Positions 28,034 to 29,514 of a stretch of DNA of 64,000 nt are shown piece by piece; the stretch's first letter is position 1; each line of letters opens with the position of its first letter. Position numbers and translations under genes: made by a program. Under the pieces are notes generated by a model. It was not told the origin of the DNA and made no database searches. It was given only the letters and a program-made list of their open reading frames with translations. The stretch is from Isoptericola luteus (GTDB lineage: Bacteria; Actinomycetota; Actinomycetes; Actinomycetales; Cellulomonadaceae), in NCBI RefSeq assembly GCF_020297055.1, contig NZ_JAIXCQ010000003.1, positions 62,001 through 126,000 on the forward strand, given 5' to 3'.

Positions 28034-28054
28034 TCTCGGCCGGCCCGGCCCGGC

Positions 28055-28104
28055 GAATTGTCAGGTCGACGTGCACGTTCCGGTGCACCTGGCCCTGACA
28101 ACTC
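28055..28104 (-). repeat. 50-bp palindromic repeat, copy A
   Basis: On the minus strand this unit reads GAGTTGTCAGG, 28 bases, then CCTGACAATTC; the arms are an 11-bp inverted repeat with one mismatch. The interior holds two GTGCAC hexamers separated by CGGAAC. It matches copies B, C and D in length, arms and interior layout. A and B are oriented oppositely to C and D. Confidence 0.9.
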
Positions 28105-28110
28105 GCAGTG

Positions 28111-28170
28111 CCACTGAGTTGTCAGGCGCTCGTGCACGTTCCTGTGCACCTCGTCCTGACAACTCAGTGG
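28111..28170 (-). repeat. 50-bp palindromic repeat, copy B, with extended arms
   Basis: The 50-bp core is 28116-28165 with perfect GAGTTGTCAGG / CCTGACAACTC arms; flanking bases extend the inverted repeat to 16 bp (CCACTGAGTTGTCAGG and its complement). Interior: two GTGCAC separated by AGGAAC on the minus strand. The stop codon of the endonuclease gene (28164-28166) lies inside the right arm. Confidence 0.92.
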
Positions 28171-29096
28171 CGGAGGTGACGACGCACGACGGCGAGCACG
28201 CGCTCGGGCTCGTAGCGCGCTGCCATGGCGGGCAGCCGCACCCTCACCGTCGCGGCGTCGGCGCCGATCTCGGCGTCCCGGAGCAGGTCGTCGTACCAGC
28301 GCTCGCGCTCCATGTGCCCGACGCCGTCGATCTCGACGACGAACTTCCGGCCGCCCGGGAGCCGCCACTCGACGTCGAGGAACCGGCGGCGGCCCGCAGC
28401 GTCGGTGCGCACGGCCTGCCGTGACGGCTCCGGCAGGCCGGCATCACGGCAGAGGCGGGCGAAGTCGATCTCCGCGAGCGAGTCGGCGCCGCCCACGACG
28501 TCCGCGAGCGCCAGCCGCATGACCTTGCGGTGGCGTACGCGGCCCACCGAGTCGAGCACGGCGAAGAGCTCGTCGGTGGTCGCGAGGCGCTGCTGCACGA
28601 CGGCGGCCATCAGCCCCGCCGCGGTGCGCCACGAGCGCTGCCACGCCGCGGCGTCGACGGCGGCCCGTGCGGCCCGGTGCACCGCCAGGCCGTCGACGGA
28701 GGCGACGTCCTCGTCGCACAGCCGGCGCGACTCGTGCACGACGAGCCAGGGGTGCCGGACGGGGGTGGACCCGCGGGCGACCACGAGATGGATCGGCGCG
28801 CGGTCCCAGCCCCGGAGCCCGTGCAGCTCGAGCGCGCTCCAGGCCCCGATCACGCTCCCGGCGGGAGCGCCGAGCAGCGCGACCCATCGTTGCCCGGCGC
28901 GGGTGAGCGGCCCCCGGTGCGCGACGACGACCGGCCCACCCAGCACCCGCCACCGCAGCGCAGCCTGGTGGTTCGCCACCTGCGCCGGCCCGATCCCCAG
29001 CACGGACAGCTGTGCCCGCGTCACGACGCCGTGCTGCCGGCGCAGCAGCGCGCGCAGCCCGCCGACCGTCGAGTAGACGCTCCGTGACCCCGTCAT
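28164..29096 (-). CDS. Putative endonuclease: AbiEi-like N-terminus, DUF559/PD-(D/E)xK-like C-terminus
   Basis: A 310-residue protein. The N-terminal about 50 residues (LRALLRRQHGVVTRAQLSVLG then QVANHQAALRWRVL) look like the winged-helix AbiEi_4 domain of type IV antitoxin-like proteins. The C-terminal about 110 residues carry a Vsr/DUF559-type nuclease core: an acidic helix (SLAEIDFARLCRDAGLPEP), RRFLDVEWRLPG, FVVEIDGVGHMERERWYDDLLRD, with Asp and ExD spaced as in PD-(D/E)xK enzymes. Single-strand or double-strand DNA cleavage is inferred, target unknown. It is bracketed by two pairs of the 50-bp palindrome, and its stop codon lies in copy B. Start ATG 29096 precedes the family pattern; no strong ribosome site seen. 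No cognate toxin gene adjoins it. Confidence 0.7.
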   Translation of the reverse strand: MTGSRSVYSTVGGLRALLRRQHGVVTRAQLSVLGIGPAQVANHQAALRWRVLGGPVVVAHRGPLTRAGQRWVALLGAPAGSVIGAWSALELHGLRGWDRAPIHLVVARGSTPVRHPWLVVHESRRLCDEDVASVDGLAVHRAARAAVDAAAWQRSWRTAAGLMAAVVQQRLATTDELFAVLDSVGRVRHRKVMRLALADVVGGADSLAEIDFARLCRDAGLPEPSRQAVRTDAAGRRRFLDVEWRLPGGRKFVVEIDGVGHMERERWYDDLLRDAEIGADAATVRVRLPAMAARYEPERVLAVVRRHLRH

Positions 29097-29196
29097 GACG
29101 ACCGAGCGTGCTCCCTCCGGCGGCGTAGACGCCGTCGGGTGGTGCACGTGTGGACGACGCCCCCGCACCGTCCCCTGGGGACGGGCTCCGCCCCGT

Positions 29197-29246
29197 GAGC
29201 TGTCAGGACCACGACCACCAGGACATGCACGTGATCCTGACAACTC
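29197..29246 (+). repeat. 50-bp palindromic repeat, copy C
   Basis: GAGCTGTCAGG (29197-29207), 28 bases, CCTGACAACTC (29236-29246). Interior GACCAC, CAGGAC, ATGCAC aligns position by position with the GTGCAC-GGAAC-GTGCAC core of A and B. It lies about 100 bases upstream of the endonuclease start. Between 29096 and this copy there is also a short palindrome CCGTCCCC-T-GGGGACGG (29168-29184). Confidence 0.88.
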
Positions 29247-29257
29247 ACACCCCCGTC

Positions 29258-29307
29258 GAGCTGTCAGGACCACGATCACCGGAACGTGCACGTCATCCTG
29301 ACAACTC
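29258..29307 (+). repeat. 50-bp palindromic repeat, copy D
   Basis: GAGCTGTCAGG (29258-29268), interior GATCAC, CGGAAC, GTGCAC, then CCTGACAACTC (29297-29307). Same orientation as C, 11 bases apart; A and B are also 11 bases apart. The following 200 bases up to the ABC gene hold several TCAGGG motifs but no gene that I can support. Confidence 0.88.
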
Positions 29308-29514
29308 GGTATGGGCGCTGGTCAGGGAGCGATCAGGGGCGGCGTCGGGGTCCGGTCAGGGGCGCGTCATACCTGGGGATGACCTGGGAGCCCGTCAGGA
29401 CCCGCCCGAAGACCGATGTCGGCGCCTCCGGCGCTCCGTAGCGTCAGGGATGTCCTGGCCCGCCTGCTCCCCGCCGAGCGCGGTGCCACCCCTCGACCAC
29501 ACCGGAGAGCTCCC

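Follow-up and report, generated by a model that had tools for sequence, protein, structure and literature searches.

The closest described systems are the REP sequences with their RAYT (TnpA-REP) proteins and the AbiE modules with their AbiEi antitoxins. In one account, the TnpA-REP gene is usually single-copy, with no evidence of mobility of its own, its cognate palindromes are found genome-wide, and the RAYT protein belongs to the Y1/HUH tyrosine enzymes and works on REPs folded as single strands (PMC8266576). A second describes REPs, or inverted repeats of other kinds, on the flanks of RAYT genes, and repeats that carry a GTAG or CGTC tag at their end (PMC3733652). For AbiEi, one study gives an operator in which a perfect 11-bp inverted repeat with a 27-bp spacer is present twice; the two are bound independently, and can be extended to 23-bp arms with four mismatches (PMC3985639). 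How short palindromes spread in bacterial genomes is an open question even for REP.

The window (the whole stretch of Isoptericola luteus DNA analysed, 64 kb) has points of likeness to both. An AbiEi-like/DUF559-like gene encoding 310 aa lies on the reverse strand at 28164..29096 (ATG at 29096-29094, stop codon at 28166-28164), flanked by a histidine kinase/LuxR-type response regulator pair and by an ABC transporter with an FtsX-like permease. Beyond its stop codon are two 50-bp palindromic units on the forward strand, A (28055..28104), with the core TGTCAG-N30-CTGACA, and B (28116..28165), which follows A after 11 bp and has its last two bases inside the stop codon; both are located between convergent genes. 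On the other side are two more 50-bp units on the reverse strand, C (29197..29246) and, 11 bp after it, D (29258..29307), both inverted relative to A and B. All four are at most about 210 bp from the gene. The pattern GAGYTGTCAGG-N28-CCTGACARCTC, with up to three mismatches allowed, has exactly four matches in the window, namely these units, and the same 11 bp-N28-11 bp pattern has none in 100 dinucleotide shuffles of it. Between the A+B block (28054-28166) and the C+D block (29196-29308) complementarity is 76%, which makes the two pairs inverted to each other. The layout first read from the sequence, four 50-bp units with 11 bp within each pair and the pairs in opposite orientation, is thereby confirmed. 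No target-site duplication was seen by eye at the block.

The protein is likely a DNA-binding one with a nuclease fold. The PADLOC AbiEi model matches residues 12-183 (E 3.8e-15) and, together with the secondary structure, delimits an N-terminal winged-helix part of the AbiEi-like region at about residues 1-60 (28917..29096, reverse strand; boundary approximate). Pfam AbiEi_4 scores 20.6 bits on the window protein, under its 25-bit cut-off, and no Pfam DUF559 match is reported for this protein by itself; among 46 aligned homologs, at E 0.01, DUF559 matches seven and AbiEi_4 15. An AlphaFold2 model (mean pLDDT 90.3, pTM 0.84) has as its best PDB fold match the AbiEi antitoxin 6y8q (E 1.1e-5), followed by the protein Rv2827c (PDB 1zel, E 4.8e-3), with weaker PDB matches to R2 retrotransposon proteins, TnsA, and the endonuclease-like 3hrl (E 0.29). 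The last of these is also the sole sequence-profile match (E 0.0067, profile positions 224-303). One viral fold match bears the name homing endonuclease (E 7.6e-3); the DUF559/Vsr-like fold is akin to homing endonucleases. Conserved acidic residues and the domain and profile matches place the DUF559-like nuclease-fold part at the C-terminus, at about residues 205-310 (28167..28484, reverse strand; boundary approximate). Here E209, D241, E255, D257, and D270, which by the nature of the fold would form the active site, are each kept in at least 90% of the 46 homologs, and these retained residues suggest nuclease activity. Values of dN/dS in six homolog pairs range from 0.08 to 0.40, so the protein is kept by purifying selection. 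The proposed combination of an AbiEi-like winged helix with a PD-(D/E)xK-like domain is in keeping with the PADLOC match, the 6y8q fold, the 3hrl profile, and the acidic residues.

Homolog loci were taken from named genomes (31) and from 297 genomes of the order (30). From these 61, eight duplicates were removed and three loci excluded (L042 and L045, with flanks of less than 250 bp, and L063, on a cut contig where a palindrome was paired with itself), so that 50 were evaluated; they include the window gene, and several are closely related to one another (e.g., L031/L033 and L073/L076). A matched pair of palindromes surrounds the gene at 40 of the 50 non-duplicate loci. By a test devised after the data had been seen, the TGTCAG core is present on both sides at 21; a matched pair or the core is found at 44, and six loci fail both tests (L027, L037, L048, L053, L079, and L082). 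Matched pairs were found around none of 199 predicted genes in the named contigs, and around 17 of 4012 random intervals at 0.70 and none of 4012 at 0.75; the core was found around none of 3986 random intervals. The original prediction was that copies of the repeat would cluster near genes of this type, and would not simply be spread through the genome. They are scattered genome-wide, yet they flank homologs far more often (40/50) than control genes (0/199), and repeat and nuclease-fold gene do recur as a unit. At 39 matched-pair loci, one palindrome is upstream of the gene (66-279 bp from the start of the match, median 111 bp) and the other downstream (median 53 bp); left and right units are in direct orientation at 20, inverted at 11, and undecided at eight.

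More distant homologs across the phylum were found at 29 loci, four of which, on cut contigs, were dropped (L243, L247, L250, and L251; self-matches had arisen at L243 and L251). Ten of the remaining 25 have a matched pair; one of the ten (L229) is from the same order, and beyond the order the count is nine of 24 intact loci, so that the association of gene and palindrome weakens with distance. This same L229 (also L014; G051:C1:2241261-2242139) is a homolog with an in-frame TGA in the match and with its flanking palindromes retained, possibly a decaying copy.

Copies of the unit are also dispersed well away from the gene. The genome of I. luteus itself (3.97 Mb, 26 contigs) has 73 within three mismatches, against none for a reversed-pattern control, with at least 15 blocks in which the start-to-start spacing is 60-61 bp, both window pairs among them. 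It has one close homolog of the gene; at E 1e-10 the profile finds a total of three matches. Gene context was assigned with a home-made GC-frame caller, by whose rough predictions 12 of 31 blocks are in ORFs and seven of 31 between convergent genes. Two blocks, at G000:C1:33834-33943 and G000:C3:61278-61387, are identical unit pairs whose nearby response-regulator matches agree too, and could reflect either duplication of a segment or redundancy in the assembly. The 42-bp core TGTCAG-N30-CTGACA of the close group is present in 67, 48, 87, and 60 copies in G000, G013, G022, and G298, respectively, and its reversed control at most once per genome over the 297 genomes. At least one core copy is found in 28 of the 297, mostly one or two and thus near the control level, and at least five in eight genomes. 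Seven of these eight have a homolog of the gene at E <= 4e-67; in the other, G131, which has seven copies, none of the candidates scored is a homolog at E <= 1e-10, and it is possible that these copies are an orphan family left after gene loss. Copies without a close homolog are also found in G003 (5), G005 (16), and G014 (15). Overall, copies are found in each of the eight genomes that contain a close homolog (E <= 2e-77), vs. six of 50 without one (Fisher 1.6e-6, uncorrected for relatedness). One array in G298 (G298:C49:321-549), near a contig start, has four units at a spacing of ~62 bp.

Distant homologs adjoin palindromes of other sequence, each clade having its own. Over 40 loci, namely the 39 matched-pair loci and the window, with the duplicate pair L039/L040 included, the more identical the proteins, the more similar the palindromes (Mantel rho 0.48, 0 of 2000 permutations). 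Genome relatedness contributes to this correlation, yet paralogs within one genome differ: G001 has two with different palindromes, and G320 has five with five palindromes, although two of the palindrome families, 2 and 4, are akin (similarity 0.70). The paralogs of G039 have two palindromes with a common motif, and L012 of G022 has no palindrome. Within a 400-kb sample of G320, picked so as to contain all five genes, there are three dispersed and two flanking copies of family 1 and two dispersed copies of family 3; families 2, 4, and 5 have no dispersed copy of their own in the 400 kb. The same sample contains a palindrome cluster, TCTCACCTCGC..., with six copies in 400 kb (G320:C2, loci L207-L226, e.g., at 400492, 821845, and 1018306). 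It is similar to none of the five flanking families, and is perhaps the family of an unsampled paralog or an orphan. A second further cluster there has three copies.

Within the genus, the position of the gene is more stable than that of the units. An ortholog of the response regulator is present across the genus, and the gene adjoins it in five genomes (G000, G001, G004, G007, and G013); the ABC gene on the far side is inside the fetched piece for G004 and the window. In G004 (G004:C10:342660-343340, query residues 82-308) and G007 (G007:C6:214771-215340, residues 1-190) the matches at the window gene's place are partial, and these copies are possibly shortened. Six other loci (L029, L031, L033, L034, L036, and L041) seem to occupy a common second old locus, apart from the response-regulator/ABC site, with blast matches of several kb. 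The window's own site was compared in nine relatives that lack the gene and have a short gap to the ABC gene, and three of them have a unit-like 42-bp palindrome there. That of G005 has two arm mismatches (TGTCGG/CCGACA) and 13 of 21 pairs, that of G010 two mismatches and 20 of 21 pairs, and that of G006 three mismatches and 18 of 21; the latter two could be ordinary hairpins. In the remaining six, the best candidates have four or five mismatches and four to nine pairs.

Turnover of the units can be followed between two Oerskovia genomes, G298 and G258, with ~92% identity at the gene locus. Among the stretches listed, 32 are from G298; five of these have no ortholog among the G258 loci and three are weakly aligned, leaving 24 that can be evaluated. 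With a core-like unit defined as one with at most one mismatch per arm, the unit is absent in the sister at 15 sites, present at seven, and ambiguous at two (L160, with masked bases, and L163, decayed). As a difference between species this is unpolarised in direction, and some cases may be losses. Sister alleles at the unit-absent sites have from -24 to 71 bp of unaligned sequence, with 483 at a three-unit site; neither a target duplication, judged by eye, nor a clean junction was found at them. The net length is a multiple of three at eight of the 15, comprising seven of eight sites in predicted ORFs and one of seven outside (Fisher 0.01, with a rough gene caller); the exception among the former is L157 (110 bases). 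Frame-preserving lengths in ORFs are what selection on the reading frame would produce if units come and go within coding regions. A CGGAYSA-like motif, picked after looking, is found in five of 14 sister alleles (seven matches vs. 0.6 expected), and a target preference of this kind is a lead only.

Presence/absence variation across strains or species, a corollary of the original prediction, is therefore seen at 15 of 24 Oerskovia sites and, as solo palindromes, in three of nine gene-less relatives. The larger claim that the whole 1.25-kb block is a unit holds in that the linkage of gene and repeat recurs, but a mobile block fits less well than a resident gene with roaming palindromes. The latter is preferred because the gene is at an old place in five genomes and the palindromes vary.

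On whether the units act as double-stranded DNA or as folded strands, the arms themselves point both ways, with no covariation in 54 own-genome copies and covariation at six of 25 positions (z 2.3 to 4.1) in 42 copies from G298. The simplest reading of their symmetry is that it serves two protein half-sites on double-stranded DNA. As candidate terminators they were rejected, with no T-tract match. No Rfam family was found at gathering score; two miRNA models scored 27.5 and 25.6 bits where their gathering scores are 56 and 80, and were taken as chance hairpin-like matches.

It seems fairly probable, if well short of assured, that the locus represents a system of enzyme plus palindromes that resembles REP/RAYT but is based on a protein of no relation to RAYT. 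In it, an AbiEi-type module joined to a nuclease would recognise an operator of its own, copies of which are dispersed through the genome. Behind this stand the observed linkage of gene and palindrome, the dispersal of the copies, their presence or absence at orthologous sites, the pairing of palindrome with protein clade, and purifying selection on the gene. The product of the resident gene would join an AbiEi-like module for DNA binding to a PD-(D/E)xK nuclease fold of Vsr/DUF559-like type. By analogy with AbiEi, it is likely that the protein binds the palindrome; much as AbiEi contacts its operator, the binding module would recognise the 42-50 bp sequence, most likely in double-stranded form, through two 11-bp half-sites separated by ~28 bp. 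Expression of the gene would probably also be under the control of the copies that flank it. Other copies, whether solitary or in tandem at a 60-61 bp spacing, would have dispersed as non-autonomous elements, with the nuclease nicking or cutting at or near palindromes and so promoting their copying or insertion in trans. That this particular protein mobilises its palindromes is a plausible, unproven reading of the pairing, dispersal, and turnover.

Several other explanations overlap with this one and with each other, so that their probabilities need not sum to one. The match of the unit to AbiEi operator geometry, and the upstream palindrome at the 39 matched-pair loci, would suit an autorepressor of AbiEi type whose operator adjoins its own gene, with the dispersed palindromes forming a regulon and the nuclease fold serving another purpose. 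Such a pure regulator does not readily explain why the same 39 loci have another palindrome downstream, why so many own-genome blocks are placed by the rough caller in ORFs or between convergent genes, or why units form tandem arrays and are missing from 15 of 24 sister sites; we regard it as unlikely, though worth keeping in mind. Mobility of the whole block, with the dispersed copies as solo ends or internally deleted derivatives arising by a homing-like or cut-and-repair route, is a doubtful proposition. In its favour are the matched units to either side of the gene, which in the window are inverted, and the lone unit-like palindromes that G005, G010, and G006, lacking the gene, have at the window's site, but the gene stands beside the response-regulator ortholog in five genus genomes and so moves rarely, the own genome has one close gene copy to 73 repeats, and over the 39 loci direct orientation of the units is commoner than inverted.

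An unrelated host or mobile enzyme might instead move the palindromes, the gene merely being located between copies or having domesticated them, and the copies without a close homolog in G131, G005, and G014 point that way. We think this improbable, because the palindrome tracks the protein clade and differs between paralogs of the same genome, and because there is no Y1/RAYT protein in the own genome, a search limited to that transposase family. Selection of the units as folded strands, whether as structural RNA, terminators, or single-strand hairpins, would be consistent with their palindromic form, the covariation in G298, and the location of A and B between convergent genes. It is nevertheless very unlikely in view of the missing T-tract, the Rfam result, the lack of covariation in the own-genome copies, and the specificity of the matched pair to the gene family. 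The original prediction also raised defence, as would apply to a solitary nuclease whose palindromes mark self DNA or regulate expression, and the AbiEi-like domain is what speaks for it; no nucleotidyltransferase-type AbiEii is found among six neighbours, positional turnover of the units is not predicted, and this role too has very little probability.

Returning to the known systems, the early comparison with REP and RAYT proves an apt one as regards dispersal, flanking, and presence/absence variation. In both cases dispersed palindromes flank a gene as well. For TnpA-REP, PMC8266576 describes palindromes that spread around a gene fixed in place, which the resident gene and its variably placed palindromes here resemble. 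The protein differs, being AbiEi-like plus DUF559-like and not Y1/HUH, and the unit is 42-50 bp long. Actual membership was rejected: the Y1/HUH transposase model (PF01797), which finds matches in five of 14 control genomes, has none in the own genome, and neither a GTAG nor a CGTC tag is evident at the unit ends, by eye on a consensus of 55 own-genome copies. With AbiE the locus shares an AbiEi-type module and a unit of 11 bp-N28-11 bp, compared with 11 bp-N27-11 bp in the published operator; it differs in its C-terminal nuclease fold and in having units on both sides of the gene and genome-wide. A nucleotidyltransferase-type AbiEii was found in none of six neighbouring proteins (two-component, ABC/FtsX, and FtsK types), two downstream same-strand genes not being separately covered, and membership in the AbiE type IV toxin-antitoxin systems was rejected as far as these neighbours go. 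The neighbouring ABC ATPase does match Pfam AAA_21, a family with a putative AbiEii toxin in its description, at E 5.3e-7, but ABC_tran is far stronger (3.8e-31).

Other likenesses are more partial. DUF559/Vsr-like endonucleases, including Vsr-like homing endonucleases, have the C-terminal fold and conserved acidic residues in common with the window protein, which differs in its fusion to an AbiEi-like module and its pairing with palindromes; Rv2827c (PDB 1zel) resembles it by fold. For comparison with classical insertion sequences, the gene is at one place in five genomes of the genus and no target duplication is seen by eye at the window block or the sister sites. Among the literature matches listed, most subscription papers being outside their scope, none describes dispersed palindromes together with a DUF559 or AbiEi gene, and in the literature searched no paper mentions both DUF559 and AbiEi. 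The two in which DUF559 and the word palindromic both occur are, by title, an Aliivibrio quorum-sensing study and a review of NAD metabolism in cancer. The link between gene and palindrome is strong, holds generally within the order, and is undescribed as far as searched. If the preferred reading of a resident nuclease with its own dispersed operator is true, there would be a second, unrelated enzyme class with the REP/RAYT layout, which would mean that the arrangement evolved more than once and would open it to study by simple assays of binding and nuclease activity; a function would also be suggested for a set of proteins whose sole annotation is DUF559 or AbiEi. The co-diversified pairs of protein and site are a natural set for decoding DNA specificity. 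There is, in our estimate, about an even chance that they belong to an undescribed class found throughout the Actinomycetota, in which nucleases took the operator of an AbiEi-type repressor as substrate and spread copies of it, each paralog with a private palindrome family: a non-HUH, double-strand-recognising, and independently arisen counterpart of REP and RAYT.
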